From the NCBI GenBank assembly GCA_030374765.1, contig JARGXX010000068.1, forward strand, positions 3,224,001-3,288,000: 64,000 nt of DNA, written 5' to 3'. The notes below the pieces were generated by a model. The model had not been told where the DNA came from and searched no databases. It saw only the letters and a program-made list of their open reading frames with translations. A program made the position numbers and the translations under genes. Positions 31,181 through 56,708 of the stretch are shown here, one piece after another (the first letter of the stretch is position 1; each line of letters opens with the position of its first letter). This stretch comes from Agarophyton chilense (Eukaryota; Rhodophyta; Florideophyceae; Gracilariales; Gracilariaceae).

Positions 31181-31548
31181 AGTGTCTATACGACCGCTGG
31201 CCTCATGTGAGGCCAAACTGTAAATTTCTGTGCTAATGTTTCGTAATTTTGACCGGATTTTTTTCATGTTTTGACCTCGAAGCAGTAAAGTCTTTATATC
31301 ACCTTTTTATAAAAATCTCCGCTTCATGGAATTTCTTTCACGCGTAAGAAAAAATCTAAAAGAACCAAGTAATATAGAATTTATATTTAAATGACGAGCA
31401 GGCTAATTACTATGTTAGCATATAAGGCTTTTTTGTATGCAAAAACAGTGATTGCACTCTAAGAAATCGTTCTGGAGCTGTGTATGAAATAGAACTAACC
31501 TTTAAAAACCAATCATTTTCGAACAATTGCCCCGGTCGTATAGACACT
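31181..31548 (+). mobile_element. MITE-like unit 1 (368 bp) with 15-bp terminal inverted repeats
   Basis: Begins AGTGTCTATACGACC and ends with its exact reverse complement. An internal near-palindrome GGCCTCATGTGAGGCC lies just inside the left end. The body is AT-rich and non-coding. It is directly abutted by unit 2 with no spacer. Confidence 0.65.
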
Positions 31549-31918
31549 AGTGTCTATACGACCGCTGGCCTCATATGAGGCCAAACTATAAAGTTAGGTG
31601 CTGATTTTTAGTTATTTTGACCAGATTTTTTCCTGTTTTGACCTCCAAACGGTAAAGACTTGGTATGAACTACTCAAAGGAATATGCGCTTCACGAAAAT
31701 GCTTCCATATGAAAGAATGAAATTTAAGGAATAAAACAGTATGGAATATATGTTAGCTGATAAACAACCTCATTTCTACCTTAAAATATAAAACAGGTAT
31801 TTGTAGATGATATAACGGCGGTTGTACTATAAAAAATTGTTTCGGAGCTGTGAATGAAACAAAACTGCTACTCAAAAAATTACCAATTTCTAACTGACCC
31901 TCCAGTCGTATAGACACT
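31549..31918 (+). mobile_element. MITE-like unit 2 (370 bp), head-to-tail with unit 1
   Basis: Same left end (AGTGTCTATACGACC, then GGCCTCATATGAGGCC, here a perfect palindrome). Its right end is GTCGTATAGACACT. Body similarity to unit 1 runs along the length (for example GAGCTGTG-x-ATGAAA near the right end). Unit junctions form perfect palindromes at 31534-31563 and 31905-31932. Confidence 0.65.
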
Positions 31919-32200
31919 AGTGTCTATACGACCACTTGCCTCATTTGAGGCCAAAATTCGAACATCGATGATTGTTGTATGCTTTGTCAATTTCCTTAAA
32001 GTTTTGTGCCTAGACGTTTTCACCACTCTCCTTTTCACTTTAGTCAACCTCAAAGATCACAAAACATCTTCCGCAGCCTGTAAACAACATCACCTTCACT
32101 AAAGTTTTTCATAATTTATCAAATATGTCTCCATCTATTTATTTCCAATGTTTAGTGGAAAATAGAGTAAAAATAGGCGCACGTCTTGTTAGATCCAATT
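31919..32200 (+). repeat. MITE-like unit 3, decayed or truncated
   Basis: Starts with the same AGTGTCTATACGACC end and GCCTCATTTGAGGCC, but no right-end inverted repeat is visible and the body diverges. Its distal part (about 32040-32160) resembles 43210-43330 on the other side of element A. The end coordinate is approximate. AT-rich sequence without a gene continues to 32682. Confidence 0.5.
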
Positions 32201-32687: not shown

Positions 32688-33550
32688 TGTAGGACAATGC
32701 CCCCAAGGGGGAAAACCTACGAAGACGTCCAGATCTTCCTCTCTCGAGGTAACCGGCGCGGTAGAGCCCTCCCAGGGATCGGCGCGCAATGCCGGGTGTA
32801 AGCCGGAGCCGAACCGTCGCGACGGCGCAGGGAGGCTGAAAGAAGCCGAGAATATCCGCAGAGGCGGTGCTTGCGTATCCTCTGAGGAGGCAAAACCCAC
32901 GAGAGTGGCGAGCACGACAGGTGTCAGTGCGAGCCGCAAGAGCGGGAATTGCCCAATGAAGGGGAGGAAAAGGGAAGGAAAATGGGAACGGAGGCAAGAG
33001 GGCGAGGTTGACCACGAGTCGCAAGAGGGGACTCGGGAATAGCCGGCACTGCCGGGTGTAGCAAACCGTATACACGGGCGGAACCACGAAGTGGGAATAG
33101 ATACCCAACGCGCGAAGGCTGTTTGAACGTCCAAGGGGGTTGGGAAGCCGTGCACCACGGGAAATCCCTCCGTAAGGAGTTGTATATCCGCGCAGGCGGA
33201 TCGACCCAGAGCCAAGATCTGGAAGACCAAGATCACCCTTGTTGGGGAGACTTTACTGGACCGGCGGCCGCGAGGCCGGCGGCCTAAGTACTGTAGTCAC
33301 CGTAGAATACAATAAATAAAGTCTATCCTAAATAGCTAAATGCCGGTCTAACAAAAGGGGCCAATCTGGCGGCCACGTGTTGCGCGGGCGCTGCGGCCAC
33401 GTGTATGGCACCCGGTCCCGCCGGTGCATCATCGGCGTTCCGGGTGTCGCCGTGAAAGCGGATTACTCCTACTCATAACGAGGTTGCACGCCGGAGGCTC
33501 CGGAAAAAACTTAAGTCCCCAAAAACCTCCCTGGAGGACGTTGCTCTTCA
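32688..33550 (-). repeat. 3' LTR of element A (863 bp)
   Basis: In sense orientation it starts TGAAGAGCAACG and ends ATTGTCCTACA. It pairs with 41935-42797. A GC-rich hairpin (33261-33282) lies within it. ORFs inside it are LTR sequence read through and are not annotated as genes. Confidence 0.93.
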
Positions 33551-33563
33551 TATCCCCCCTCTT
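33551..33563 (-). promoter_or_regulatory. Polypurine tract of element A
   Basis: The sense strand reads AAGAGGGGGGATA immediately before the 3' LTR, the expected plus-strand primer for reverse transcription. Element B has AGGAGGGGGATA at the same place. Confidence 0.85.
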
Positions 33564-33597: not shown

Positions 33598-35373
33598 ATG
33601 GCAGCTCGTCATGATAAGAGCGCGTCCGACACCGGGTCTCCGGAAACCAACACACCTTCACCAAGGATCCCACGCACGCTCTCCGCATCCGATTCCAACA
33701 ACAGCACACCAACACGCACCATGTCCAACCCCGACCGTCATAACACATCCGCGACTCCCGCCCTTGGCGGTTCCACCGGCTTCCGGTCCGCGCCCCACCC
33801 TGGGGATATTACCAACCTCGCGTACGAAGACCGCCGTATTGGCGCCCGCTTTCGCGGACAGGCGGACCCACCGCAGTTGTCGACCTACGACGCCCTTGTG
33901 GGTGCGAATCCGAGAACTCGGCATGGCTCCGCGAGGTTGCGGTATGCGCCTTGGTTTCACCCATTGGCTGTCCGCGACGAGGATTTGATTCAATCCTACA
34001 CCGATAACTCGGAGATGCTCCCGGGCGACCTGCCCGGCGTGGTGACCCTGTCCTGGGATTGGAGTAATCGTATCGCCATCCTGGTACACCACATACTCCG
34101 CCGACGCGGTGAATCCTCTGCGGAGGCTCAAGCCGCGCTTGTGCGGATCGCTTATCTCAGGCACCATCGGGCGCCTTTCGAGTTCCCGATACCGCCAGAG
34201 GTCGAATTCGACGTCCACCTTTACCGCACTCGCGGGGAAATGTCGTACTGTGACCGTCTTAACGGATTGGAAACCCTCGCTTGGAGGGGCACACCGATCG
34301 CTCGGCAAGATGCCCTTTGCTGGGTACGACCGATTCTTCGGGCAGAGTTCCGCTATCAACCGCGGCAGTCGCGCTCGAACTTCCTTCAGAACTTCATCCG
34401 CGATGAGCGGCGTTGGCGGGCCCGGACCGGGTATTTCGTACCGTACCAGAACACGGAGATTGAGCGCATCGCGCCTGCTCACCGACGTGGTCGGTACGTC
34501 AGTCTCCCAGACTGGTGGTCCTCCTTGGAGGCGTGCCGGGGTTGCTTCGTTGAGCTGCCCCCAGTATTCACCTATGTAGGGTCGTCGTTCTTGAACGATC
34601 CCCAGTCGGGGTGGTGGTCCGTCGTGGTAAGCGAATGGGCCGTCCGCACTGCGGCTTTTATCCTCGCTGAGGCGTACGACCAATACCGATTGTGGTACGT
34701 GCCACCGCGTGTGCGGGCTGCGATCCGTCGTTTGGACATGCGCATCCCCCTCGGGGGCGAGGCGAACGAAGAAGAGATGCTGGGCCTCCTCGACTTTGTG
34801 GAGGGGGTCCAGTGGGATGAGGTCCCGCTGGAGAACTCCCAACGCATTCAACCGCGTCGCGGGTCTGGCCCCGGACTCGGGAGGAATACCGCGCTAGCGG
34901 GGGATTTCGTCTACTTCGACCCCTGGGAGTACCACGAGATCAGCCGCGAGGAAGCGGAAGCCAACCGGCATGCGCCGCGTGAAGTCCCGGCCGACCACCC
35001 GCGAGGGTATGTCGACTCGAGCGACTATTACCGCGACTATGCGGATGGTGACCCGATGGTCGACAACGAACCGGAGGATCCGGGTTACGCTCCGATGGAG
35101 GATGACGGGTCCGGCGAGGCCGGTGAGGAGTCCGTTGAATACGGTGGTGCGGCTCCATCCGGGGCTGCTGATGCCGTGCGAACGGATTCCTATCCGACTC
35201 CATCGGTGGCGGGCCCGCCCGCAACCGTCGCTGGCGCGGAGTGGGGCGAGGTCATCGCGCGCTTCCTTCGGGAGGTGGGGCTTCGCCCTTCCGAGATCTC
35301 GGGTGATGAGGCCGCCATGCGGGATGCCTTAGCCAACCGCCTGGGCGGGGGTCCACCTCGTGCGGAGGAATGA
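33598..35373 (+). CDS. Antisense ORF of element A, conserved unknown protein
   Basis: An intact ORF opposite in strand to gag-pol, between the pol stop and the 3' LTR. From the Met at 33598 (MAARHDKSAS) it encodes 591 residues; the frame stays open from 33424 inside the LTR, giving 649. The internal Met is preferred because the homologue in element B also begins at about this point (MNKSATSS). Residues 1-80 are Ser/Thr/Pro-rich. A folded-looking core follows (about 90-390), rich in aromatic and charged residues: RYAPWFHPLAV, MLPGDLPGV, PFEFPIP, GLETLAWRGTPIARQ, LEACRGC, AYDQYRLWYVP and IPLGGE. A D/E-rich segment (about 450-515) and a C-terminal helix (VIARFLREVGL) complete it. No membrane helix or catalytic motif is seen. 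I recognise no family. Transcription would have to start in or near the 3' LTR on the opposite strand. Confidence 0.75.
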   Translation: MAARHDKSASDTGSPETNTPSPRIPRTLSASDSNNSTPTRTMSNPDRHNTSATPALGGSTGFRSAPHPGDITNLAYEDRRIGARFRGQADPPQLSTYDALVGANPRTRHGSARLRYAPWFHPLAVRDEDLIQSYTDNSEMLPGDLPGVVTLSWDWSNRIAILVHHILRRRGESSAEAQAALVRIAYLRHHRAPFEFPIPPEVEFDVHLYRTRGEMSYCDRLNGLETLAWRGTPIARQDALCWVRPILRAEFRYQPRQSRSNFLQNFIRDERRWRARTGYFVPYQNTEIERIAPAHRRGRYVSLPDWWSSLEACRGCFVELPPVFTYVGSSFLNDPQSGWWSVVVSEWAVRTAAFILAEAYDQYRLWYVPPRVRAAIRRLDMRIPLGGEANEEEMLGLLDFVEGVQWDEVPLENSQRIQPRRGSGPGLGRNTALAGDFVYFDPWEYHEISREEAEANRHAPREVPADHPRGYVDSSDYYRDYADGDPMVDNEPEDPGYAPMEDDGSGEAGEESVEYGGAAPSGAADAVRTDSYPTPSVAGPPATVAGAEWGEVIARFLREVGLRPSEISGDEAAMRDALANRLGGGPPRAEE

Positions 35374-35705: not shown

Positions 35706-38700
35706 TTATCTCTCTTGGGCGTTTACCAGCGTGGCTGGGAGTGCGGTCCCCGCAAGGCGGTGGTATCGCACTACCGCAGAGCGCGGGAGGTGCTCGATGG
35801 GCTCCGGAGTGTCCCACTCCGGCCCGTATCCGTACCAGCGGGTCCGGTACTGGAGCACCCCGTGCTCATCGTAGCTATGTCCGACGATTCGGTCGAGGAC
35901 GTACTCCTGCACGTAAACTTGCCGGCCTTGCCGGGTGGTGGTGGCCCGAGCCTCAGCGCCGCGCGGTGCTGGGCTCGTCGTCGCCTGTTCCGGGTCACCC
36001 GGTTTGTCATTCCGCTCTGCGGTTGTTGCCGGGTTGCCGGGGCTGCCGTACCGCTTCGCGGAAGTTCCCGGCGCGGCCGGGTTGTGTTTCCGCTGGGCGG
36101 TAGGGGCTTCCCTGAAGTCCGCCCTTACCGCGAGTTTGCGGGGGTCCTTCCGTCTTGGTGACGGTTCGCCGGAGGCCTCCGCTTGATTTGCGGCATGCGG
36201 CGTTCCCATTGGTGGGCAGTTTCCGCTGTGCGGTGCGCCGTGGGCGGTGAGTGGTTCACCGTCCCGGCGATCCGCCTCCGCGGGGTGGCTGTCAGCCAAT
36301 GACCGGGATGCCGGGTGCCCATTGGTCCGGTCTCCCGCCCGGGTCACGTGACCTTGACGACGGGTGTTCGGGCCGTCGCGGACGGTTGGCTCCGATTGTT
36401 CGGCAAGGGAGGCGGTTTTCGACTTGTCGTCGCGCCCCTTTTCCCCCATGGGGTTCGTACCGGTCTCAACGGAGTGGCTCGCTAGACCTGCTTGCGCAGC
36501 GCCCGCCGGAGTACCGGTATCGACCGAAACGCTCGGTGTGCGACCGCGAATGTGCAGGGAGCCCTTAGTTGCTTCCACGCGATGCGGGGCGTCCGTAGGG
36601 TCTCGCTTCCCGGCTTCGGGTCTTCGAGCGCCTCGGTTCCCCTTGCGGGCTTGCGTGGCGGTCGGATTGACCGCCGCGTCCCGCGGGAGCGGAGTAACGT
36701 CCGGCGACGATGCCGGTTGCCCGCTCGGCGGCCTTGCCCGGGGTGTCCGGTTAAACTTCCGTTGCGACGGCGATGCTTCCGCGATTGAGCGGGTCCCCTC
36801 CCCCTCCTTAGACGGAGCGACGGGTGATGATGGGCTAACCGCATGGCGGGTATAAATACCGCTGCACGGCGCCCGTAAAGGTAGCTGGCCGCGAGGGCCA
36901 GGTGTTTCCGGCATTGCCGGTGGTTCCGATAAAGTCGGTATATCGGAGAGACCCCGTGAGGGGTGCGGTACCACGGCGGGGCTTCTAAGCCATGGTGCCA
37001 CGGGTACGGGTGTTTCATTCTCGCGCGCTGCGAGTAGCTCATCCATTTCCATGGTGTCTTTCCCGGTTTCGGGCCAATCGGACTCCGTCGGTGTTTCCCC
37101 TTCCAAGGTAAAGCACGGGATCTCGTCGACCTCCGGCTCGGCAAGTGCTTCACCTGTCGTAGGTAACCGAGAGAGGGCGTCTGCTTCGGTGTTCTGGACA
37201 CCCTTTTTGTAGATGACCTCGAAGTCGAATTCCGCTATGCGGAGGCGCCACCGCATTAAGCGGCCAGAAGGATCTGCGATGTTCAGCAGCCACCTCAACG
37301 AGGCATGGTCCGTGTATACGGTGAAATGAATGCCCATGAGGTATGGGCGCAGACTGGATAGCGCCCAGACCACTGCGAGGCACTCCTTCTCGGAGACCGA
37401 GTAGTTGCGCTCGTGGACGTTCAGCGTGCGGGACCAATAGCCAATTGGTTTGCGTTCCCCCTCGGGGGTGGTTTGGAACAGTGCGCAGCCCACCTGGTGG
37501 TCGCTGGCGTCGGTGTCGATGGAGTAGGGAAGCCCAGCTTTGGGCAAGGATAGGATGGGAGCTGTCGTAACTGCCTTAATAAAGGAGCGAAAAGATTCCG
37601 ACTGATCGGTGGTAAATGGCGCAAGCTTTGGTGGCTGGCCCTTCCGCAGTAGCGCGTTTAGCGGAGCGGCGATATCCGAGAAACTCGGTATAAACCGTCG
37701 ATAGACGTTGACCAGACCTAAAAAGGATCGGAGCTCCGTTTGAGTACGGGGCTCCTTCGCCTCGCAGAGGGACTTGATACGAACTTGTTCGATCATTAAC
37801 CGTCCTGGACGGATGACGTGCCCGAGATACTTCACCGTGTCGGTGAAGAACTCGCACTTCCTCAACTTGAGGGTTATTCCTGCGTCTCGCAGTACGGTCA
37901 TCACGTCCCGCACGTGGGTCAGGTGATCGTCCAGGTTTCTGGAAAAGACAATGATGTCGTCCAAGTAGACAAGGCACGTGCGCCACTTGAAACGCGACAC
38001 CAGTATGTCTATTGCCCTTTGAAAGGTGGCCGGTGCATTGGTTAAACCAAACGGCATCCGCTTGAAGCGGTAGGAACCCGAGTGGCAAACAAACGCGGTT
38101 TTGTCTCGGTCCTCTTCCCGGACTGGGACTTGCCAGTAGCCCCAGTTAGCATCCAGAGCCGTAAACACGGTAGCGTCCCCGAGCGAGTCTATACACTCGT
38201 CGATGCGCGGAATCGGGTAGGTGTCCCTCACGGTGACGGCATTGAGGCGGCGGTAGTCAACGCAAAACCGCCACGTGCCGTCAGCCTTGAGGGCCAGCAC
38301 CACCGGTGAAGCCCAAGGAGATTGGGCGGGCTCGATGACTCCAGCACGGAGCATCTTGTCCACCTGAAATTCTTCCTCCTCCCGAGCTTTCGGTCCCGCC
38401 CTGTAAGGGGGTTGTGCAACCGGACGTGCGTCCGGTAGCAAGTCTATCCGATGTTCGGTTGTATTGATCTCACCCAGTGAGCCGTCCCACATTGTGGTAA
38501 ACTCGCGTAGCATTCCGCGTAAGCGGCCCCGGTGTGAGACCGGTACATGACTCAGGTCCAGGTCCTCGAGGGCCTTGATCGGGTCTATCTTATCGTAGCT
38601 CGTAGGCTGTGCCCTGGTGTCAGGTGTGGGAACCGACGAGGTCGGAAATGCATCCGTCTTGACTGTTTTATCGAGCGCCAACTGCTGTGCCTCCCCGGAG

Positions 38701-39665
38701 GTTTCTGCACCGGATACCGGGAGACCATCCTCAGTAGAGGGAGTTATCCCGAGAACTTCGGCAGCCGTCACCTTTGTAGGGAGCATCGCGAGCGGGTGCG
38801 GCGTCACAGACCCAATGACTTGGTTCTTTGCCAGCGTCTGGGGAGCCTTTCCCAGATTGGCAACCAACACCCGGAAAGGGGAATTCGGCGTGACTTGCAC
38901 GATTCCGTTCGCAACGGTTAACTGAAATTTCCCGTACAGCGAGGGCAAGGTCTGAACAACCCGAAGACCGTGTTGACGGGAAATGACTGAAACCATAACC
39001 TGGCTCTCCGGGGGTATGGTTACTGACGAGGCAACGCGTAGCTTCGTAGAATCCCGGTTCGCTGGTGTGGGTTCCTGCGCAGCAGGTAGAGGAACGTGTT
39101 TCCTGGATGCCCGCTTCAGCGGTTGACGAACAATGGGGACGGTCGATCCGTCCTCAAGTTCCACCTGCTTAAGGCGTGGGCGGATGGCGTCGACAAACCT
39201 GTTGCAGTAGTCACATCCCAGTATAACTGGCGCGGCCAGCGAGCGGCACACAATAAAAGTTAGTTTAACCACCATCTGCCCTAGCCTGACGACCAGGTCG
39301 ATCACACCAACCGTTTTCAACGGGTTGTTATTGGCGTCTGAGACGTCGGGTACCGTTTCAGAACGGATGAGTGACCGCAATGGCGGGGGTAAAACCGATT
39401 CCACAATAAAGTTCGGCCCAGCACCTGTATCCAGGACAGTGAGATGTCTCACCATAAACTGCGTGTGCAGACCAAGGTCAGCGTAAACCTTGTAGTTACG
39501 CTTGGCCATTACCAAGACTCTATCAGGGATCCGGTTATTTCTAATCCGTATCCACGGTCGACGCAACACACCGAGGTGTTTAGAGTCCGCGTCTGCGGTG
39601 TCCTTCCTTGTCAGTATTTTCACCGGGGAGCGAGGCATCGGCGCCTCGGGCGTCGTCAGCCTCAA
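35706..39665 (-). CDS. pol: Pol of element A: protease-RT-RNase H-linker-chromodomain, integrase absent
   Basis: A 1319-residue open frame. The aspartic protease motif LDTGAG is at 78-83. RT has YLDD (567-570) with FRFCVDYRRLNAVT-like and MPFGLTNAPATFQ-like motifs. RNase H has DTDASDHQVGCALF and YTDHASLRWLL. After the RNase H end (DALSRLPTTGEAL) the frame passes directly into a low-complexity Pro/Arg/Thr-rich linker of about 400 residues, then a chromodomain (about 1245-1300; YRTRWYGYGPEWDTPEPIEHL). The zinc HHCC, DDE and GPY/F parts of integrase that element B has at this point are missing, yet the frame is kept. Gag and pol are in different frames. RT and RNase H look functional by motif; integration would need help in trans. 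Confidence 0.92.
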   Translation of the reverse strand: MRLTTPEAPMPRSPVKILTRKDTADADSKHLGVLRRPWIRIRNNRIPDRVLVMAKRNYKVYADLGLHTQFMVRHLTVLDTGAGPNFIVESVLPPPLRSLIRSETVPDVSDANNNPLKTVGVIDLVVRLGQMVVKLTFIVCRSLAAPVILGCDYCNRFVDAIRPRLKQVELEDGSTVPIVRQPLKRASRKHVPLPAAQEPTPANRDSTKLRVASSVTIPPESQVMVSVISRQHGLRVVQTLPSLYGKFQLTVANGIVQVTPNSPFRVLVANLGKAPQTLAKNQVIGSVTPHPLAMLPTKVTAAEVLGITPSTEDGLPVSGAETSGEAQQLALDKTVKTDAFPTSSVPTPDTRAQPTSYDKIDPIKALEDLDLSHVPVSHRGRLRGMLREFTTMWDGSLGEINTTEHRIDLLPDARPVAQPPYRAGPKAREEEEFQVDKMLRAGVIEPAQSPWASPVVLALKADGTWRFCVDYRRLNAVTVRDTYPIPRIDECIDSLGDATVFTALDANWGYWQVPVREEDRDKTAFVCHSGSYRFKRMPFGLTNAPATFQRAIDILVSRFKWRTCLVYLDDIIVFSRNLDDHLTHVRDVMTVLRDAGITLKLRKCEFFTDTVKYLGHVIRPGRLMIEQVRIKSLCEAKEPRTQTELRSFLGLVNVYRRFIPSFSDIAAPLNALLRKGQPPKLAPFTTDQSESFRSFIKAVTTAPILSLPKAGLPYSIDTDASDHQVGCALFQTTPEGERKPIGYWSRTLNVHERNYSVSEKECLAVVWALSSLRPYLMGIHFTVYTDHASLRWLLNIADPSGRLMRWRLRIAEFDFEVIYKKGVQNTEADALSRLPTTGEALAEPEVDEIPCFTLEGETPTESDWPETGKDTMEMDELLAARENETPVPVAPWLRSPAVVPHPSRGLSDIPTLSEPPAMPETPGPRGQLPLRAPCSGIYTRHAVSPSSPVAPSKEGEGTRSIAEASPSQRKFNRTPRARPPSGQPASSPDVTPLPRDAAVNPTATQARKGNRGARRPEAGKRDPTDAPHRVEATKGSLHIRGRTPSVSVDTGTPAGAAQAGLASHSVETGTNPMGEKGRDDKSKTASLAEQSEPTVRDGPNTRRQGHVTRAGDRTNGHPASRSLADSHPAEADRRDGEPLTAHGAPHSGNCPPMGTPHAANQAEASGEPSPRRKDPRKLAVRADFREAPTAQRKHNPAAPGTSAKRYGSPGNPATTAERNDKPGDPEQATTSPAPRGAEARATTTRQGRQVYVQEYVLDRIVGHSYDEHGVLQYRTRWYGYGPEWDTPEPIEHLPRSAVVRYHRLAGTALPATLVNAQER

Positions 39666-39700: not shown

Positions 39701-40700
39701 CTATTCTTTTCCCTGTACAGGGTCCTGGTCAGGCGAAGGCCCGACTTCCTCGGCAACGAGTGCATGATTCCGTTGCACGGTAGCTACCGCAGGAGCGGGT
39801 TGAGATCCACCAGCGTGGTTTGGCGCTGGTGCGGCGCGTGCCGGCTGAGCCGGTTTGTACCGAGAATTCGGAGTGTGAGCCAATGCGTTGGGGAAGTCCG
39901 TCTTCGCGCGGAGATATGACGTGAGTGGCACGGAGCCCTTCTCCTGCGGGGAGAGGCCTTCGTAATTATCCACCACTCGCGCCATATCGCGTAGCGATAA
40001 AAGGCATTGCGGGGAGGTGTGCCCGCGCTCGTAGCACAAGTGGCACACCAACGTCACTCCCGCGTTTCGCGGTACGGCATTCCGAGCATCGGTGTATCTT
40101 CCGGGTTCCCGGTTTTCAACCCATCCAGGGCGCTGACTTCGTGTCATTCCGTTCGAGTACGGCATACGGGGGGCCGGAGTGCGGCGGTCATTTAGATAGA
40201 AGACCTGCCCGTTCTCCGTGTCCCTTGCGGTTGAGTCAACCGAGCCATCCGTCGTAGACGGTAATTCCGTTGTCGGAATAGATAAACCATCGTGATGGAT
40301 GACATTCATATTGTCATAACCCTGTTTGGGGATGCCATCCGTCGCAAATGACGGTGGAGAAGAGTCCGACTCAAGCAGAAATGCCTTAGCGGCCTTCGAC
40401 CGGGTTCCCGGATTGCGTGCACGTAGTGCATCTCCCTCTGCGCGGGCAAACTGTACGAGTTCAAGGTAGGTCACCTTCGGTTCTTGTTCCCTGTAACGGG
40501 CGACAAGAGTCTTGATGGCTGGATCCAAGCCATCAATGAACATCATACAGCGTTCCCCAGCGGGGTATACATTACCACAACGGTGGAAAGCCTTATTCAG
40601 GCGTACCGAGTAATCGGTCTCGAGCTCGCCGGAGCGTTGTCGAGTGTCTCGCAAAGCGAGTATCGCCGCTTGTATCGCGGTGTTGGTTGCGTAGGAACGC
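39701..40700 (-). pseudogene. gag: Gag of element A, 3' part (capsid C-terminus, zinc knuckle)
   Basis: Continues gag after a one-base loss at about 40699-40702. It carries the capsid C-terminal region (RDTRQRSGE, FIDGLDPAI, ELVQFARAEGDALRAR) and a zinc knuckle CHLCYERGHTSPQC (C-x2-C-x4-H-x4-C). The open frame with Met begins at 40654. It ends just upstream of pol, which is in another frame. Confidence 0.85.
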
Positions 40701-41820
40701 AGAGGTACTGCACGGCCTCGGGCCAGCAGGTCACACCTCCTTCAGAGGCTCGCGACGAGCCCCGAACCGACAAAAACTGATCTTCAGCGACACCCCGTAG
40801 AAAGTAGGGTAGCGCCACGTAGGCTTGTCCTTCGTTCATTCCGAGTATATCGGCTTCCGCTACAAAGCGGTGTAGGAAATCCAAGACCAGAATTGGATCA
40901 TCCCCAGTAAACGACTGGTTACGAAGTGAAAGCTGCATCCGCTTGATGCAGTCTTTCACTTTACCCGTGTCACGCGGTGTCCGACCTAAAGAGGAATCTT
41001 CTAGCCGGTAATACCGGTAGGACAGGAGTGTCCTGTACAGAGGGTTGGTGGGCTTCAAGGGTTTGAGGCCCGGATGTCGCCGACCCTTGGGGCGCAACCG
41101 GATGGCCCCGTAGGTGGCAGAGGACAGCTTTGAGCGGGAAGAGCGCCCATAACGATCCTGTGGGTCATCGCTCACCGACGAATCGGAACTCTCCGAGTCA
41201 CTCGGTTTACCGTCCGACTCAGATGATGAGTCGGACGGGTGTCCGTGCTTACGGTTAGAATCCCGGTTCTTCCGGCTCTTCCGGTTCTGCGACTGGGTCT
41301 CTCTATGAGAGACAACCGGTCTAGCCACGTTTGCGGGCGGGGTTAACGTCCTCTCGACCGACTCAAGTCGGCTTCGGAGACGCTCGAAGCGATTCTCCAT
41401 ACCTTCTGCGAAGGAAGACGGAGCGCCAAAACAGTCGAGTAGTGTATTGACGTCCGACCGCAATACGCGGATATCCTCGGCTAACTCACTTGGAGGGGGG
41501 TTAGCGAGGCTTCCTCGTAAAGTGGTGAACTCCCTCGAGAGGGTATTGTGAGCAGCCCGCAGGGAGCGGAGCTGCTCTTCCAAGCGTACAACCCGCGCTT
41601 GGTCGACCAACCGCGGAGGCGGAGAAACCACCGTTGCGACGGTCGTTAACCCGGAATCGGGCTGCGGGTCTTCAGTGCCGGTGACCGGTATCTCCCGGGA
41701 ATGGGGTGTTGGAGCCAGGGCCTGTGGAACATCAGTGCCCCTGGCATCACCGCTTTGGCGGGAACGGCTGCGTGTTGCAGGACGCTCCATACTAGGCGGT
41801 TTCCTTGGCATTGGCCACAC
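40701..41820 (-). pseudogene. gag: Gag of element A, 5' part (N-terminus and capsid N-terminal region)
   Basis: Begins MWPMPRKPPSMERPATRSRSRQ; the inner Met of MERPATRS is a plausible start. It has a short coiled coil, an Arg/Ser/Asp-rich middle (SDSSSESDGKPSDSESSDSS) and a capsid region (KGRRHPGLKPLKPTNPLYRTLLSYRYYRLEDSSL). Homology to element B gag stops at EAVQYL because one base is missing relative to B (CTCTGCG against CTCTTGAGG). The original frame then runs on with unrelated residues to a stop at 40597. This is a frameshift break; it does not look like a domain boundary. Confidence 0.85.
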
Positions 41821-41913
41821 CGTCTCGACGGAAGAATAGAAAGCAAACCGGTGAGACCGGAGAAAACCCGTTAAACGGAAAAAAACCTCAGAGAGGACAC
41901 AAGCGGTCTTGAC

Positions 41914-41931
41914 TTCTAAGTCGGGAGACCA
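41914..41931 (-). promoter_or_regulatory. Primer-binding site of element A
   Basis: The sense strand reads TGGTCTCCCGACTTAGAA three bases after the 5' LTR. It begins TGG, pairing with a tRNA 3' CCA. The implied tRNA end has C at position 61 and is compatible with a T-arm. Element B has the same 18 bases. Confidence 0.8.
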
Positions 41932-41934
41932 ATT

Positions 41935-42797
41935 TGTAGGACAATGCCCCCAAGGGGGAAAACCTACGAAGACGTCCGGATCTTCCTCTCACGAGGTAAC
42001 CGGCGCGGTAGAGCCCTCCCAGGGATCTGCGCGCAATGCCGGGTGTAAGCCGGAGCCGAACCGTCGCGACGGCGCAGGGAGGCTGAAAGAAGCCGAGAAT
42101 ATCCGCAGAGGCGGTGCTTGCGTATCCTCTGAGGAGGCAAAACCCACGAGAGTGGCGAGCACGACAGGTGTCAGTGCGATCCGCAAGGGCGGGAATTGCC
42201 CAATGAAGGGGAGGAAAAGGGAAGGAAAATGGGAACGGAGGCAAGAGGGCGAGGTTGACCACGAGTCGCAAGAGGGGACTCGGGAATAGCCGGCACTGCC
42301 GGGTGTAGCAAACCGTATACACGGGCGGAACCACGAAGTGGGAATAGATACCCAACGCGCGAAGGCTGTTTGAACGTCCAAGGGGGTTGGGAAGCCGTGC
42401 ACCACGGGAAATCCCTCCGTAAGGAGTTGTATATCCGCGCAGGCGGATCGACCCAGAGCCAAGATCTGGAAGACCAAGATCACCCTTGTTGGGGAGACTT
42501 TACTGGACCGGCGGCCGCGAGGCCGGCGGCCTAAGTACTGTAGTCACCGTAGAATACAATAAATAAAGTCTATCCTAAATAGCTAAATGCCGGTCTAACA
42601 AAAGGGGCCAATCTGGCGGCCACGTGTTGCGCGGGCGCTGCGGCCACGTGTATGGCACCCGGTCCCGCCGGTGCATCATCGGCGTTCCGGGTGTCGCCGT
42701 GAAAGCGGATTACTCCTACTCATAACGAGGTTGCACGCCGGAGGCTCCGGAAAAAACTTAAGTCCCCAAAAACCTCCCTGGAGGACGTTGCTCTTCA
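41935..42797 (-). repeat. 5' LTR of element A (863 bp)
   Basis: Sense start TGAAGAGCAACG, end ATTGTCCTACA. About five differences from the 3' LTR by hand count. The GC hairpin is at 42508-42529. Three of its variant bases match the nearby solo LTR better than they match its own partner. Confidence 0.93.
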
Positions 42798-44110: not shown

Positions 44111-44973
44111 TGAAGAGCAACGTCCTCCAGGGAGGTTTTTGGGGACTTAAGTTTTTTCCGGAGCCTCCGGCGTGCAACCTCGTTATGAGTAGGAGTAATC
44201 CGCTTTCACGGCGACACCCGGAACGCCGGTGATGCACCGGCGGGACTGGGTGCCATACACGTGGCCGCAGCGGCCGCGCAACACGTGGCCGCCAGATTGG
44301 CCCCTTTTGTTAGACCGACATTTAGCTATTTAGGATAGACTTTATTTATTGTATTCTACGGTGACTACAGTACTTAGGCCGCCGGCCTGGCGGCCGCCGG
44401 TCCAGTAAAGTCTCCCCAACAAGGGTGATCTTGGTCTTCCGGATCTTGGCTCTGGGTCGAACCACCTGCGCGGATATACAACTCCTTACGGAGGGATTTC
44501 CCGTGGTGCACGGCTTCCCAACCCCCTTGGACGTTCAAGCAGCCTTCGCGCGTTGGGTATCTATTCCCACTTCGTGGTTCCGCCCGTGTATACGGTTTGC
44601 TACACCCGGCAGTGCCGGCTATTCCCGAGTCCCCTCTTGCGACTCGTGGTCAACCTCGCCCTCTTGCCTCCGTTCCCATTTTCCTTCCCTTTTCCTCCCC
44701 TTCATTGGGCAATTCCCGCTCTTGCGGATCGCACTGACACCTGTCGTGCTCGCCACTCTCGTGGGTTTTGCCTCCTCAGAGGATACGCAAGCACCGCCTC
44801 TGCGGATATTCTCGGCTTCTTTCAGCCTCCCTGCGCCGTCGCGACGGTTCGGCTCCGGCTTACACCCGGCATTGCGCGCAGATCCCTGGGAGGGCTCTAC
44901 CGCGCCGGTTACCTCGTGAGAGGAAGATCCGGACGTCTTCGTAGGTTTTCCCCCTTGGGGGCATTGTCCTACT
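44111..44973 (+). repeat. Solo LTR of the element A family (863 bp)
   Basis: Plus-strand sense orientation, starting TGAAGAGCAACG and ending ATTGTCCTACT (final A changed). The same length as the element A LTRs and nearly identical to them. Flanks are CCAAT (44106-44110) and CTAAT (44974-44978), a target duplication with one mismatch. It is the product of recombination between the LTRs of a former full element. Confidence 0.9.
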
Positions 44974-45607: not shown

Positions 45608-46529
45608 TGAAGTGCAACCCTCGTGAGGGCCGTTTTCCAGGACTTGGTTGTTTTTCCGCCTCGGGCGATACTTGTGAGATCTATGAGTAATACCGCTACT
45701 AGTGGGCTGGCGTAGCCAGGTGTATACGCGTTGTACGCGAAGTGCACCGGCGGCCGTGCGCCGTGGCCCCGATTCGGGTGTGACTTACCCACGTGTACCA
45801 CGGGTGGCCCAGGACAGGTTGGCACAACATAGCTGGATATTTCTCTATTTATTTGGCTTTATTACACTAGGTTAGGGAGCTCTTTACAGTATTCTACACT
45901 ATATAGTGCCAGGGCGATCTCGCCCTGACACTCAGTAAACCTCCCCAACCAGGGTTCTTGGCTCTAAGTCTCTTTCCGCTTTCGCGAGTCTTCCACACTC
46001 TACGGAGGTGAAGCCGCGTTACTAACGGTAGACTTATCCACCCTGCGTCAACAGGAGACTCACCGCTGTTAGCGTGTATATCTTTCATACCACTGCCGTG
46101 TTCTCGCCCCAGTATTGGGTTTGCTACATATTTCTTTTGGCTCTCGTGGCCCATGCCCCCGATCGCCCCCACTGGGTGGTCCCCCCTTTATCGCTTACCA
46201 ACTCTCGTGGTAGCTCCCCCTTTTGCTTTGTGGTTGGTTATTCGTGCCGCTCGCGCGTGTGCCGCGCGCCAGCTTACCGTGTTTACCGCCACTCCTGTGG
46301 GTGCATTACTCGATCTCGAGACTTGCCCACTCCCGTGGAATACAGCTCATACCTGGTCTGCTCCCTTTTAGCATCCGGCACTCTCCCCGCTTGGCGTGCC
46401 GGTGAACCTCGGCCTTACACCCCGACCTAGTCGTGTTCACTCCAGAGAGGCTCCATCGCCGTGCTACTCTCCTTGGAGGAAGATTCGGACATCTTCGTGT
46501 GTTTCCGCCACCCTTGGCGTTGCACTACA
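45608..46529 (+). repeat. 5' LTR of element B (922 bp)
   Basis: Starts TGAAGTGCAAC and ends GTTGCACTACA, so the two ends are inverted repeats matching at 10 of 11 bases. The hairpin at 45906-45931 (stem CAGGGCGA / TCGCCCTG with a 2-base apex) corresponds in position to the GC hairpin of element A. Confidence 0.93.
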
Positions 46530-46532
46530 AAC

Positions 46533-46550
46533 TGGTCTCCCGACTTAGAA
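46533..46550 (+). promoter_or_regulatory. Primer-binding site of element B
   Basis: TGGTCTCCCGACTTAGAA, three bases after the LTR, identical to that of element A. Confidence 0.82.
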
Positions 46551-46689
46551 GGCTAGGGGGACCTGGTTTGGTTGTTTTTCACATTGCTGTGCTGTCTTCT
46601 CTCGTCGAGATCTGCTTTTCAATTTCTTGGTTTGGACCCACTTGGTGGAAGCTTTTGTTGTCCTATTCTTAGTGGTCAACGCTACAACC

Positions 46690-48819
46690 ATGTCACGACT
46701 ACCGTCGGAAGCGGAACCCGCGATCACGCCGAGCCGTTCCGTCAATGACGTGGTGCCTGCGGACTCTGGAAGGGTTCCCCCGCCGTTACCTCAAGCCGCT
46801 CCGAAAGGCAAGAGTAAGGGGTCGAACTCCTCCAAGAACAACAAGCTACCGCCTAAGGCATCGAAGAATGGACCCAATTCTGGTGCTGGACCGGCCCCTG
46901 CCGTGGATGACCCGGCTCCTGCCGACGAAAAGGCCCAGAAAAACGAGTTCCACATCGACACCAACTCAAGTGTGAGGCAGCAGATCCGCGTAATGCGGGA
47001 AGCGCACAATGCCTTCGTGGAAGAGTTCGAAGCCCTGCGTTCCAGGTGTGATGGCTCTTCTATGAAGGAAGTGGTTGACGACCTGCGCTTGTTGCAGGCG
47101 GACGTCAACACCCTGTTGGAATGTTTTGGTGGTCCCGCCTCTTACGTGGAAGGTGTCGAGACCCAATTCAATCGTGTTAGCGCCCGTCTCCAGACGTTAG
47201 AGCAAACTATCTTGATGGAAGACGTCCCGGAGAAGCCGGTTGCTGTGTCGCACCAAGCGAAACACGAGAGGAAAAGGGACGATAATCGCCGTCGGCGTGG
47301 AAAGCGTGACAGCGATGACTCGGACTCGGCGAACTCCTCACGGTCGTCGCATGGCTCTCACCATTTAAATGGGTCGGACTCGTCAGATTCGTCTTCTGAC
47401 GATGGCCATCGCATGCGTTCATCCCGTTCTAAACGGTCGTCTGCCACCCAAGGTGTGATCCGCGCCCGCGAGAAGGGAAGGAAACACTCCGGGTTGAAGG
47501 AGCTGAAATGCACCAACCCCCTGTACAAAAAGTTGGTTTCTTACCGATACTATCGGCTAGAGAACTCCTCTTTGGATCGCACGCCCCGTGGCACGGGTAG
47601 AGTGAAGGATTGCATAAAGCGTATGCAACTGTCCCTCAGGAACCAGAACTTTTCTGGAGAAGACCCTAATTTGGTGTTGGATTTCCTTGCGAGTTTCGTC
47701 GCCGAAGCGGATATTCTCGGTATGACCGAAGGACAGGCGTTTATTGCACTCCCGTACTTTATGAAAGGCCTCGCCGAGGATCAATACAACTCTGTAAGAG
47801 GTTCGTCTAAAGCCTCCGAAGGAGGGGTAACCTGCTGCCCAGAAGCAGTACAATACCTCTTGAGGTCCTACGCCACTAATCACGCGATTCAGTCGGCCAG
47901 TCTCGCTCTTCGCGATACGCGCCAGAAGTCTGGAGAAACGGAAACCGAATTCTCGGTGCGCCTGAACAAGGCTTTCCACCATAGTGGGAACGTACACTCC
48001 GCCGGAGAGCGCTGCACCATGTTCATCGATGGACTGGACCCCGCTATCCGAACACTCGTGGCCCGTTACCGGGAAGACCGAAGGACGACCACGTATCTGG
48101 ATTTTTTTCAACACGTGCAAGCGGAAGGTGACGCTTTAAGAGCTCGTGCCCCCGGACACAGGTCGCGAACCGCCAAGGCGTTGGTGATGGAAACGAAGTC
48201 GCCATCCCTATCGCTGGTTGCGATTGAGCGCCCCCAACAGGAGTACGACAACGTACACTTCGCCCGAAGCGATATCCATTCGGTCCCGACAACCGAACTA
48301 CCGTCTACGACGGACGACTCATATGACACGGCCCAGGATGGACCCCAGCTGTACGCAGACTCTCCCCGTGTTCACGGACCTCGCATCCCGTATTCAAACG
48401 GTGCGCTCTGAAAGTGTCACCCTGGATGGAAGGATACCCGCCAAGCGGTGAAGTTCACGGATGCTCTCTCTGGTTTGCAGCCCTCACGCCCGGGACTCAT
48501 ATGCCACATATGCTACGAACACGGTCACATTTCACCGGACTGTATCCTCACCATGAGGGAAGTAGCCCGAGTAGTCGGTAATTATGAGGCGTTGACCCCA
48601 GTGGAAAAGCGGATTGTTCTGATGACGTCGTATCTTCGAGCGAAGATCGATTTTTCACGGAGTATTCCGGAGGCGAAACCGCGCAATGCGTTGCTTTACC
48701 CTGCCGAGCAGGCTCCCGACCACCGCCCCGTTCCTTCAAACCCCGCCGCTGGCGCCCCATTGCTAGTGGTTCACGATTCTGAGGCCCCGTCTCAGGCGGA
48801 TGGGACTCAGGAAAACTGA
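46690..48819 (+). pseudogene. gag: Gag of element B, one in-frame TGA
   Basis: From MSRLPSEAE (46690) the frame has a Lys/Pro-rich N-terminus and a helical region with the motif DDLRLLQADVNTLLECFG. A Ser/Asp/Arg-rich middle follows, then the capsid (KGRKHSGLKELKCTNPLYKKLVSYRYYRLE; EGGVTCCPEAVQYLLRSYA). A TGA at 48409-48411 interrupts it just before the zinc knuckle CHICYEHGHISPDC, and the same frame then continues to 48819. In element A the aligned position is within SNGMTRSQ, so a lost Arg codon (CGA to TGA) is a simple explanation. Readthrough is the alternative. Confidence 0.85.
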
Positions 48820-48867: not shown

Positions 48868-51800
48868 TTGACGAGGCCCGAGGCGTCTCCGCCTCGCTCC
48901 CCGGTCACAATCCTCACGAGGAAACAGGCCGTCTCAGACGTGGACTCTGAACACTTTGGTGTTCTACGTCGACCGTGGAAACGTGTTCTTAACCGCCGGT
49001 TCCCGGATAGAGTCTTAGTAATGGCCAAGCGCAATTACAAGGTGTATGCCGACCTTGGCCTTTCTACCCAGTTTATGGTTCGAGTCCTTACTGTTTTGGA
49101 CACAGGTGCTGGTCCGAATTTCATCGTGGAGTCGCTGCTGCCCCCGCCCTTGCGGTCTCAGATCCACCTTGGCGTGGCGCCCGACGTCGCGGACGCGAAT
49201 AACAACCCGTTGTCAACGGTTGGAACCGTCGCTCTCGTCGTTCGCTTGGGCTCCTTCGTGGTGAAACTCGACTTGATTGTATGCCGGAAATTGGCTGCCC
49301 CCATCACCTTGGGATGTGACTTCTGTGACAGATTCGTTGACGCCATAAGGCCCCGCTTAAAGCGTGTTGAAATGGAAGACGGCTCGTCGGTCCCGATTGT
49401 CCGTCGTCCGCTGCGGCGTGCCTCCAAGAAGCACGTACCGCTCCCTGCCGCGCAGGAACCTCCACCCGCTTCTCGGGAGTCTACCAAGCTCCGCGTGGCT
49501 GCGTCTGTCCGAATCCCGCCAGAGTCCCAAGTATGGGTGCGTGTCACTTCCCGTCAACACGGTTTACGAGTCATTCAGCCTCTCTCATCTCTGTACGATG
49601 GATATCAACTCGCCGTGGCAAATGGAGTCGCGCAGATTGTCCCAGACAAGCCGTTCACCGTTCTCGTTGCCAATATGGGCTCTACCCCCCGGTCACTGGT
49701 GAAAAACCAAGTTATTGGATCGTTAATGCCTCACCCCACCGCGATGGTCCCCACTAGGCTGACCGCTGCCGAAGTCCTCGGTCTCGTTCACACTAAGGAG
49801 GGGGAGGAAGCTGCCGTCCAATCACCGAATGATTCGGAATTGCAACCTGCCGAAACAGAAAAGAAGCCCGTTCCGACGAGTTGCGACCGGGTAGACCCCG
49901 TGAAAGAACTCGAGGAACTCGACCTCGGTCATGTAATGGAGTCACACCGTGAAAGTCTGCGTGAGATGTTACGGGAGTTTACCACAATGTGGGATGGCTC
50001 TCTTGGTGAGATAAATACAACGGAACACCGGATAGATTTATTTCCGAACACCCGACCGGTGGCTCAACACCCTTACAGGGCAGGCCCCAAGGCTCGAGAA
50101 GAGGAACAGTTCCAAGTGGACAAAATGCTCCGAGGTGGAGTGATCGAACCGACTCAGTCGCCGTGGGCATCCCCAGTGGTACTGGCTCCGAAACCCGATG
50201 GGTCCTGGCGCTTTTGCATCGACTACCTTCGCTTGAATGATGTTACCGTCAAGGACGTGTATCGGATCCCACGAATGGATGAGTACATCGACTCTCTCGG
50301 CACTGCTACCGTGTTCACGGCTTTGGACGCCAATTCGGGATATTGGCAGGTTCCCGTTAGGGAGGAGGACCAAGATAAGAATGCGTTTGTCTGTCACTCG
50401 GGACTCTACCGTTTCAAACGGATGCCTTTTGGTCTAACCAATGCTCCCGCTACCTTTCAGCGTGCTATCGACATTTTGTTGGACCGCTTTAAGTGGCGTA
50501 CTTGCCTCGTCTATTTGGACGATATCATTGTATTCTCAGACAATCTGGATGACCATCTCACCCATGTCAGGGACATAATGACCACGATACGTGATGCTGG
50601 AATAACCCTCAAACTGAGGAAATGTGAGTTCTTTACCGATACTGTGAAGTATCTCGGGAACATTATCCATCCTCGACGTGCAATGATCGAGGAAGCTCGA
50701 GTGAGGTCCCTTTGCAAGGCGAAAGAACCCGCTACCCAGACGGAACTGCGCTCCTTTCTAGGATTGGTCAACGTCTACCGACGGTTTATCCCTAACTTCG
50801 CTGACATCGCGACCCCCTTGAACGCGCTTCTGCGGAAAGGTCAACCACCTAAACTGGACCCCTTTACGTCCGCCCAGACGGATGCTTTTATCTCCCTTAG
50901 GGAGGCTGTCACATCAGCACCGATTCTATCGTTACCGAAACCCGGACTACCGTTTTCCGTGGACACGGACTCTAGGGACTACCAGGTAGGCTGTGCGCTC
51001 TTTCAAACTACTCCCGAAGGAGAACTCAAACCCATTGGGTACTGGTCACGCTCGCTCAATGTCCACGAGCGGAACTACTCCGTGTCGGAGAAGGAGTGCT
51101 TCGCAGTTGTGTGGGCCCTCTCTACACTCCGCCCCTACCTCAGGGGTGTGCACTTTACCGTTTACACGGATCACTCGTCCCTACGATGGCTCATGACCAT
51201 CTCGGAGCCGTCAGGCCGCTTAATGCGTTGGAGACTCCGCCTCGCGGAATATGACTTTGAAATGATCTACAAGAAGGGCACTCAGAACGCGCAAGCGGAC
51301 GCGCTCTCGCGTTTACCCACGAATGGGGAAGCTCTAGCCGTCGATGACGAGGATATACATTGCTTCGTCGTAGACGATGGAACACCGGGGGACCCGGATT
51401 GGTTACACGATAAATGGAACGAAAGCCCGGAATCAGATGATGATATTGACGCATTGCTCGTCTCGGACGATTCAGAGAAACCCCCGCCGGGTAATTTTGT
51501 GCCGATACCCCCGGAGGAGATGGTCAGAGACCAGCAGGGTGACCCCTTCTGTACGAAGATTCGCGCCTGGCTTAATGGCGGTGCACAACTCCCTTTCGAG
51601 GTGAACGATCTTGGATACCTCGTCAGGACGGTTCAGTCATCCCCACGAGTCGTGGTGCCGCATACTCTACAGTCTAGAGTTTTGCATCTATCGCACTATG
51701 CGAAACTTGGTGGACACGCCGGTGGACCGAAGCTCTACCTTACTTTGCGAAGGAATTTCTACTGGCCCGCCATGGCGGTGGATTGCTACGCAACGGTGCG

Positions 51801-52695
51801 GTTTTGTACCGAATGTGCTAAGAATCGGGTGAAACTTCGCAAGTACTCAACGAAGTTGAAACTATTCCCGGCACGGGCTCCTCTCGAGTTTGTCGCCATT
51901 GACATCCTCGGTAAGCTCCTCACCACACGACGTGGACATAAGTTTTTACTCGTTATCACGGATCGTTTCTCAAAACTGGTTCGGACCGTACCTCTACGGA
52001 AGATATCCACTTTCACGGTTGCACAAGCATTTGTAACCCATTGGGTATTCGTCTACGGCCCGACGGTTAGTCTTCCATCCGATAACGGAAAACAGTTCGC
52101 ATCGCGATTCTTCGAGGACGTGTGCAGGATTCTTAACATCAAGAACCTGTTCACAACGACCTATCACCCCCAGTGTAATGGGCAAGTGGAGCGGTTTAAC
52201 CGAACGCTATTAGCGTCTCTCCGTTCTTACGGGGCCGACCACCCAAAGACATGGGATTTATATACCGACGCCTTGACGTTCGCGTACAATACGCAGGTAC
52301 ACCGTACTACGGGCTTGACTTCATTCGAGCTGGTCTTGTCCCGCCCTCCGCCCGCTGTCGCGTTAGAACCCCAGCCCACGCTGGATGCGTTCCCTTCCGT
52401 GAAGGATTATCGCCACAGGTGGAAAGAGTGGCTTACGAAGCTGATCCCGGTCGCCCGAAGCTCGATGGCTCGTGCCCAAGCCGCTTACAAGCGTGATTTC
52501 GACTCTCGCGTACGCGGTAAGGCCCCGCCAATCAAAGCCGGTGACTTCGTCTTCGTCCGTAAGGAGTACTGAAACCCTGAAAAGGAAAAGAAGCACAAGC
52601 TTTCGTCCGTCGCGGACGGTCCTTACAAGGTCATTTCGGTGAAAGACGACACCATCGTGGTGGAAATTGTCGACGCTCATGAGCGGATCTCCCGC
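48868..52695 (+). pseudogene. pol: Pol of element B: protease, RT, RNase H, integrase (in-frame TGA near the end)
   Basis: 1234 codons to the TGA at 52570-52572; the same frame continues with a GPY/F-type module (VADGPYKVISV, about 52606-52638). Landmarks are protease LDTGAG near residue 79, RT YLDD (549-552), RNase H VDTDSRDYQVG and YTDHSSLRWL, an integrase HHCC zinc region (HLSHYAKLGGHAG...CTEC), and the catalytic triad D1012 (FVAIDILG), D1072 (SDNGKQF) and E1108 (NGQVERFN), with 35 residues between the last two. All catalytic residues are intact. Only the TGA after KEY is clearly damaging. The start Met aligns with that of element A pol. Confidence 0.9.
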
Positions 52696-54568
52696 GACCG
52701 CGTTGTACTCGCCCCGCCACCGACGTTGGAAGTAACCGAAATGGGCCAACAATCCCTCTCTGAGGATGATGTTGCTCGGCACACAACAGTGGCTCAGCCC
52801 ACTGCCGTGGTTTCCAGACCTTCTGCGTTACCACACCCTACCCGGGGACTCTCTGACTTGCCGATCTTATCGGACAAAGGCCAGAATGGCCTCTCTTCTC
52901 TCACGCCACGGCGCGGTGTCTACCCCCGCCCATTTGGCGTTTCAATCACTCCCCATGCCGCTCCGTCTCAGGAGGGGGAGGAGGCTCATAACTCTCGTGG
53001 AGAGACGGAAACCGCTTTTTCGCGTCATGACAACCATGGTGCACGGACTCCTGGACACACCAGCAAGAACAACGGTGATCCGGACGTCCCGTCTACCGAC
53101 GTGCCATCTCCGCCGTTGCCCACTACAGCCGTTGCTGAACCCTCTATGGGAAGCGCCACCGCATCTGCGTCTGATCGCACCCCCCACGGGGACTCTACTC
53201 GACAGGACGCACCACGTAGTGGAAACCCTCTCGCCGAAGCGAAACCGAAATCGTCGCAGGATGCTGTTCGCCCTCGCGATACTGGACCGGCTATGCCGTC
53301 GAGCGTTGACCCGCAGCCCGTGGGTCACAATTCGTCGACACCAGCTACGCTGGAAAACTTAGAGCACGCCCTCGCAGGCCCCTCTAGGCCAAATCGATCG
53401 GAAGTGGTCCCTCGTACTGTACGGCAGGACAAACCGGCTAAGTCGGGCAAGCACACCGTAGCAGACAGGAGATTCACACCCAGCACGCTTGATGCTGGTT
53501 CAGAACCCGCGCGCAGTGGCGGACGCACTCCGAGTGTCTCGGTTGACCCCGACAGCGTTGTCGAAGGCGCACCCGTCACCCCGGAGAATGTGCCCGTCAA
53601 GGACGGAAGCACCTCGTCGCCGAGTGAAGTTCAACCCTCGAAAGTGATAGTTGAGAACGAACTCGCTCCCCGCAGGGGTTCTTCGCCGCGCGCTTTCGCC
53701 GCCCGTTGGTGAGGAAGGCACGGTTAACCCGGAGTTGCACGCCCGTCGCGGTACTTTGTCGCCCAAGCGAGCAGACATACCGGCAGCGCCGTCGCACACG
53801 CCCTCACGTGAGGAGGCGGAACGCAGCACGGCGCGGAGTACTCCCAGCCATCAGCCGGACGTGTCACGTGACCAGACTACACCCGGCTCGGGAGATACGC
53901 CAATCAACGCCCAAGGCGGCTCACCCGGCAAGGAACGACGCCCCGTGATGAAACCGCCTTCCGCGTCAAGTCCAGCACCGTCGCGACGGATTTCACCCCG
54001 ACGACTCGCGGAACGCGACCTCGAAACCCAGCCTTGGGATGAGTCCGCATTCCCCCGAAGGGTGGCCTCTGCACGAGAACTCTCGGAAAGCATTCCGACC
54101 CAAAAACTGGGAGAATTGCCCCACGGGAAGGCCTCCGGCCGAAGCCGTCGAACTGACGCTCTCCGTCATGACGCCTTGGCGGAAGCAACCCGCCAAGCGG
54201 CCAAGGCAACCCGGAACCCGGTTCGTTCCCCTACCAAGGGCATGGAAAGGCAACGCCAACCCATGGACCCCTCGGGGGAAGGTCACAGTAGCCCACACGC
54301 ACCTGCGGACGTACACCGGTTTGGTCCGGTGACGCGTACACCGCAAGGGCGAGAAGTCTACGAGAAGGAGTTCGTGTTCGACCACATAGTGGAGCACTCA
54401 TACCATCCGGATGGTTATATTCAATACCTCGTCCGTTGGTACGGTTTAAGGCCCGAATGGGATTCGGATGAGCCGATGGAACATCTCCCACGTTCGAAGG
54501 TGGTGTCATATCACCGCAGAACGTGGACTGGAATACCGGCATCGGTTCTTAAAGCCCAGGTGGGATAA
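52696..54568 (+). pseudogene. pol: Pol C-terminal linker and chromodomain of element B (frameshifted)
   Basis: After the GPY/F module comes a Pro/Ser/Thr/Arg-rich linker of about 540 residues, without recognisable fold. Its start (SALPHPTRGLSDLPILSD) matches the linker of element A. The frame shifts by one between 53651 and 53712. The second frame ends with a chromodomain (about 54355-54520; YLVRWYGLRPEWDSDEPMEHL), which in other chromoviruses guides integration to modified chromatin. In element A the linker and chromodomain are in one frame, so the shift here is a mutation. Confidence 0.82.
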
Positions 54569-56661: not shown

Positions 56662-56708
56662 TCGTCTCGGCGCTTCGCCCACCATCGCAAATGTCGTACT
56701 AGCGCCTC

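Follow-up and report, generated by a model that had tools for sequence, protein, structure and literature searches.

The window analysed here, a 64,000-nucleotide stretch of DNA from Agarophyton chilense, contains a long open reading frame that lies between pol and the 3' LTR of a retroelement on the strand opposite to gag and pol. The question that this locus raises is whether the frame is a gene of the element and, if so, what its product might do. A sequence-only reading had placed an intact antisense ORF of about 590 codons in this interval, and that placement proved exact, as the frame opens with ATG at 33598, closes with TGA at 35373 on the plus strand and encodes 591 amino acids. Based on the comparisons described below, the interval 33598-35373 is very probably a protein-coding accessory gene. 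The substitution patterns in its copies show that this putative antisense gene has been kept under purifying selection while the chromodomain Gypsy-type elements that carry it diverged.

Elements A and B and the copies of the antisense frame

The window holds two LTR elements, referred to here as A and B, with the following features.

Element A
32688-33550, minus strand: 3' LTR, with the 5-bp duplication CTGTT outside it
33374-33403, no strand assigned: a pair of CACGTG palindromes within the LTR, on the upstream side of the accessory ATG; candidate promoter motif
33551-33563, minus strand: purine-rich stretch adjoining the 3' LTR, between it and the accessory ATG, likely the polypurine tract
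33598-35373, plus strand: antisense accessory ORF
33658-34851, minus (sense) strand: competing frame of 397 amino acids with a TTG start, judged to be a shadow
35706-39665, minus strand: pol, with reverse transcriptase, RNase H, linker and a weak chromodomain match
39701-41820, minus strand: gag, as two overlapping ORFs (39701-40654 and 40597-41820)
41913-41931, minus strand: likely primer binding site, with 19 bases identical in B (46533-46551, plus strand)
41935-42797, minus strand: 5' LTR, with the CTGTT duplication outside it

Element B
45608-46529, plus strand: 5' LTR, with a CAATT duplication outside it
46627-48411, plus strand: gag ORF
48868-54568, plus strand: pol region in three ORFs, with reverse transcriptase, RNase H, integrase and, at its end, a weak chromodomain match
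54748-56685, minus strand: homologue of the accessory ORF
56721-57642, plus strand: 3' LTR, with the CAATT duplication outside it

The two LTRs of A differ by 5 mismatches over an 865-bp alignment, and those of B by 22 mismatches over 922 bp. All of the Gypsy-type features tested (LTRs, 5-bp duplication, primer site, reverse transcriptase with RNase H, and an integrase after RNase H) are present in B. Element A has every one of them except integrase, which a domain search did not find in its pol, a point that the sequence-only reading had missed. The chromodomain matches of both elements fall below the Pfam cut-off. Between A and B, the pol proteins share 72% identity over 895 aligned positions and the gag pieces share 49-60%, with gag split into two overlapping ORFs in A and forming a single ORF in B. 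The accessory ATG is 47 bp away from the 3' LTR in element A and 35 bp away in element B, and the LTR of B carries one CACGTG palindrome. Elsewhere in the window there is a lone A-type LTR in the opposite orientation (44111-44972; 98.5% identity over 862 bases), and beside element A are two 161-bp direct repeats whose starts are 370 bp apart and which are 74% identical (31425-31955). Host-type genes identified with Pfam occupy 127-30819, and these encode a DEAD helicase, a WD40 protein, a Sel1 protein, ALG6/8, PP2C, a kinase and a 1751-residue kinase with ankyrin repeats.

The homologue in B had been described as full-length in a single frame. The frame is indeed single, with 645 codons and no indel, but the copy in the window is not intact, as it contains four in-frame stops; intact copies of B occur elsewhere in the genome. 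One of these (L040, 645 amino acids) is 92% identical to the window copy. The A protein is 48% identical to the window copy over 597 aligned positions and 50% identical to L040. Full-length ORFs are found in four families, A (591 amino acids), B (645), C (575) and D (608), which share 31-50% amino acid identity in pairwise comparisons. Families C and D are each represented by one intact copy, taken from the groups of matches to the Gracilariopsis chorda protein P0005 and the 'ena' protein P0007, and a second D-type copy (560 amino acids) was used for structure alignments.

Copy numbers in the genome are lower bounds, and intact copies are over-represented in them since the best matches come first. 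With that bias, the 80-Mb genome contains at least 74 A-type matches at 93-100% amino acid identity, 47 of the 74 without a stop in the match. A 192-residue C-terminal piece of B used as the query gave at least 150 scored matches covering B, B-like and A-type copies, and P0005 and P0007 gave at least 77 and 68, respectively. Three A-type copies are spaced exactly 9197 bp apart (G000, contig C68, 3138181-3158347) and two on contig C77 are 9249 bp apart. The LTRs in the window have a similar spacing (9247 bp), and the distances possibly reflect tandem elements that share LTRs.

That the ORF sits between pol and the 3' LTR and runs against gag-pol was established in full for A and B, and further copies were examined for the strand relation. 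For A, the pairing used 54 integrase matches at 75-80% identity (of 121) and the 33 matches (of 41) that span the whole RNase H-linker junction; for B, it used 50 of the 150 matches to the C-terminal query and 67 integrase matches at 92-100% identity. The accessory ORF was opposite to the paired pol match in all 42 A copies for which a pair was found (of 74) and in all 41 such B copies (of 50). The 42 A pairs comprise 17 integrase matches and 25 junction matches without integrase, located no more than 6 kb downstream. The other 32 A copies, 20 of them without stops, lacked a paired match, probably because the searches score the best candidates only. At one C locus and one D locus, a chromodomain above the Pfam cut-off was found on the strand opposite to the ORF.

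Selection on the frame and its apparent persistence without integrase

Comparison of A with B in the ORF frame gave a dN of 0.46 and a dS of 2.23, a ratio of 0.21 over 578 codons, where dS between families is near saturation (three of the six family pairs have an infinite value) and the protein-guided alignment leans toward the ORF frame. The other five frames gave 1.29, 1.51, 1.26 (the sense frame of 397 amino acids), 0.42 and 1.65. The value of 0.42 belongs to minus-strand frame 1, which has 21 and 19 stops, and is attributed to codon register. An unguided blastn comparison of A and B placed three of three HSPs in register, with mismatch frequencies of 0.247, 0.167 and 0.468 at codon positions 1, 2 and 3.

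Constraint within families is milder, with dN/dS of 0.53 among 30 unique A copies (from 38 loci, duplicates removed) and 0.73 among 25 unique B copies (from 30 loci, after removal of duplicates or alignments shorter than 1850 bases). Most other frames are near 1 within families. Minus-strand frame 1 has a ratio of 0.63 in A and 0.74 in B, the latter equal to that of the ORF frame, so in the B copies by themselves the ORF frame does not stand out. Frames are best discriminated by the core of the A protein (0.47); discrimination is poor in the N-terminal (0.62) and C-terminal (0.63) parts, where other frames go down to 0.67. Changes shared by at least two of the 30 A copies number 64 nonsynonymous and 46 synonymous (per-site ratio 0.46) and include no stop, compared with 261 and 134 among singletons (0.64), which include 10 stops, a difference that is not significant alone (chi-square of about 2.3). 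The ATG is kept in 29 of the 30 copies and the TGA in all 30. In the same copies, the C-terminal part of pol has N/S ratios in its own frame of 0.94 for singletons and 0.70 for shared changes. The ORF has a nucleotide diversity of 0.014-0.040 per 100-bp bin; bins of the distal LTR (32700-33100) have 0.09-0.10 and those of the pol part 0.031-0.096. The substitution pattern fits selection in active lineages followed by decay after insertion. A dN/dS near 1 and equal conservation of all frames, which the sequence-only reading had named as signs against a gene, were not what was found: the ratio in the ORF frame is well below 1 between A and B and, less markedly, below it within families, and frames are conserved unequally both between A and B and among the A copies. 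The frame-specific constraint supports the proposal of an extra antisense protein gene common to this group of elements.

A 1001-bp stretch spanning the RNase H-linker junction of A has 41 genomic matches, 33 of which are essentially whole-length at 95-100% identity, while seven cover about half of the stretch and one covers 648 bases. Since the junction is spanned whole in those 33 matches, element A belongs to an amplified subfamily that lacks integrase; A-type copies with integrase are also present in the genome. Among the 30 fetched A copies, 13 were labelled integrase-less, five integrase-bearing and 12 neither. Shared changes in the accessory ORF were 30 nonsynonymous and 19 synonymous in the integrase-less copies (per-site ratio 0.52), 2 and 6 in the integrase-bearing copies (0.11), and 23 and 23 in those labelled neither (0.33), with no stop in any of the three groups; the corresponding ratios for singletons were 0.74, 0.73 and 0.52. 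The C-terminal pol part of the integrase-less copies has a similar ratio for shared changes (0.49). Constraint on the accessory ORF thus seems to be retained in copies that lack integrase; the numbers are small, and the pattern is not specific to this ORF. A stop-free ORF was found in 18 of the 25 integrase-less and nine of the 17 integrase-bearing A copies, numbers that are small and subject to the best-match bias.

The predicted protein and its possible roles

Relatives of the accessory protein were found among uncharacterised proteins of G. chorda, Gracilaria domingensis and A. chilense, and none outside red algae and taxon-unlabelled assemblies among the roughly 8,000 word-sharing candidates scored per protein search. 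The remark in the sequence-only reading that the protein belongs to no recognisable family holds across family, PDB-sequence and fold searches, as Pfam, NCBIfam, PHROGs, PDB-sequence and Foldseek searches gave no significant match. TRP28 (PF04195) had no match at E≤1 in seven members, nor at E≤0.1 in the intact B, C and D ORFs. The protein is predicted to be soluble, with a disordered N-terminal tail rich in Ser, Thr and Pro that leads into a mainly helical core (about residues 91-468). Beyond the core come an acidic linker and a short C-terminal part, also predicted to be helical, and the predicted fold gives no hint of function. The four family proteins lack a strong transmembrane-like stretch (maximum 19-residue Kyte-Doolittle mean of 0.93-1.57) and the CCHC motif, and profile comparison put the probability of similarity to the elements' own gag at about 0.1%, with a gag profile that is shallow (two sequences). 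An envelope-like ORF is ruled against by this hydropathy together with the antisense orientation, and Gag or nucleocapsid by the missing Gag similarity and CCHC knuckle.

The explanation that accounts best for these observations, and which we consider likely as a whole, is a coding antisense accessory gene with an antisense promoter in the LTR and a regulatory or cofactor role for its product. The U3 region of the 3' LTR would hold the promoter from which antisense transcription begins. The message would most simply start inside the LTR given how close the ATG lies to it in both A and B, and on these distances it is somewhat probable that an LTR antisense promoter drives the gene. For the protein, the favoured mechanism would be a nuclear regulatory or cofactor function that serves the life cycle of the element itself, at the level of LTR transcription or of the pre-integration step. 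Such a role is favoured by the lack of a strong transmembrane stretch, a CCHC knuckle and a resemblance to gag. A regulatory role remains tentative, its closest working analogues being the antisense accessory proteins of plants and the antisense regulators of retroviruses. The sequence-only reading had suggested a regulator, a structural factor or an anti-silencing factor as candidates.

Other explanations deserve consideration. Long antisense frames are common in GC-rich sequence, and in an element of such composition the ORF could be a chance shadow of a genuine gene on the sense strand. The sequence-only reading had seen no competing ORF on the sense strand, which was wrong as stated, as the TTG-started frame of 397 amino acids overlaps the accessory ORF. 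That sense frame, however, contains 3 and 4 stops across the aligned A and B codons, its dN/dS is 1.26 versus 0.21 for the ORF, and its per-site N/S among the 30 A copies is 1.01 for singletons and 0.84 for shared changes; it is judged to behave as a shadow itself. As the plus-strand frame is also kept in four families despite their divergence, a chance origin is extremely improbable. It is very unlikely that the functional product is the antisense RNA, through silencing or control of double-stranded RNA, with the protein secondary. Antisense transcripts have been proposed to act in this way in plants (review PMC7264820), but such a role leaves the codon-position bias and the amino acid constraint unexplained.

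A structural particle protein, such as a second Gag, a coat or an envelope-like protein, would be compatible with the size, the tail-core-tail layout and the occurrence in the four families examined, and one of 15 members had a weak PHROGs match to a virion protein (E of 0.064). The hydropathy, the absence of a zinc knuckle and the gag profile comparison speak against this assignment; there is no capsid among the few, insignificant fold matches and the elements already possess a sense gag, making a structural role rather unlikely. Alternatively, the ORF could be a captured host gene, or a gene of a nested mobile element or virus, that hitch-hikes with the retroelement and contributes little to it. 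In favour of this reading, certain relatives in G. chorda carry annotations as ordinary hypothetical genes. Four families carry the gene with constraint, however, and relatives among the candidates scored come only from red algae and unlabelled assemblies, so that hitch-hiking is quite unlikely. Returning to an accessory gene that serves the element, an undescribed protein family, perhaps of a new fold, could have originated in the chromodomain retrotransposons of red algae, or been captured by them, independently of the plant cases. Each element copy would then need the protein for itself instead of receiving it freely in trans. The need by the copy itself is suggested by the multicopy integrase-lacking subfamily, which still keeps the gene, though the proposal as a whole is speculative and we regard it as doubtful.

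Antisense ORFs in other LTR elements

In LTR retrotransposons of flowering plants, namely Grande (gene23), RIRE2, Retand and PvRetro13, antisense additional ORFs (aORF-3R) are known from the interval between pol and the 3' LTR (PMC7264820); they are present in most copies with function unproven (PMC7264820; PMC11963269). The sequence-only reading had not mentioned this precedent. Our partial survey of the literature found no report of the present gene, nor any of antisense ORFs in LTR elements of red algae. A selected and apparently unrelated gene in the high-copy elements of a distant lineage would suggest that the arrangement itself solves a recurring problem of LTR elements. Frame-specific selection across families makes this question testable, and copies with and without integrase coexist in one 80-Mb genome.

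The plant ORFs share both the place and the antisense orientation of the red-algal ORF, with hosts that here appear to be red algae. According to PMC11963269, 97% of Retand clusters encode a TRP28 domain, for which the red-algal ORF has no match. Retand is described as a non-chromovirus lineage, whereas the red-algal elements carry a chromodomain (above the cut-off at one C and one D locus, below it in A and B). Amplified defective elements are also reported for Retand, including a cluster without RNase H and integrase (same source), and tandem repeats are common there. Given the same arrangement, the lack of a TRP28 match and the presence of chromodomains, the red-algal ORFs would constitute a new variety within a known arrangement, apparently an unrelated protein family residing here in chromodomain Gypsy elements. 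Outside plants, Boty of Botrytis cinerea is given as an antisense-ORF example of the same arrangement (PMC7264820). HTLV, in which an antisense promoter lies inside the 3' LTR (same review), likewise has an antisense gene near the 3' LTR, a likeness of arrangement in which the red-algal counterpart of the promoter is a putative one.
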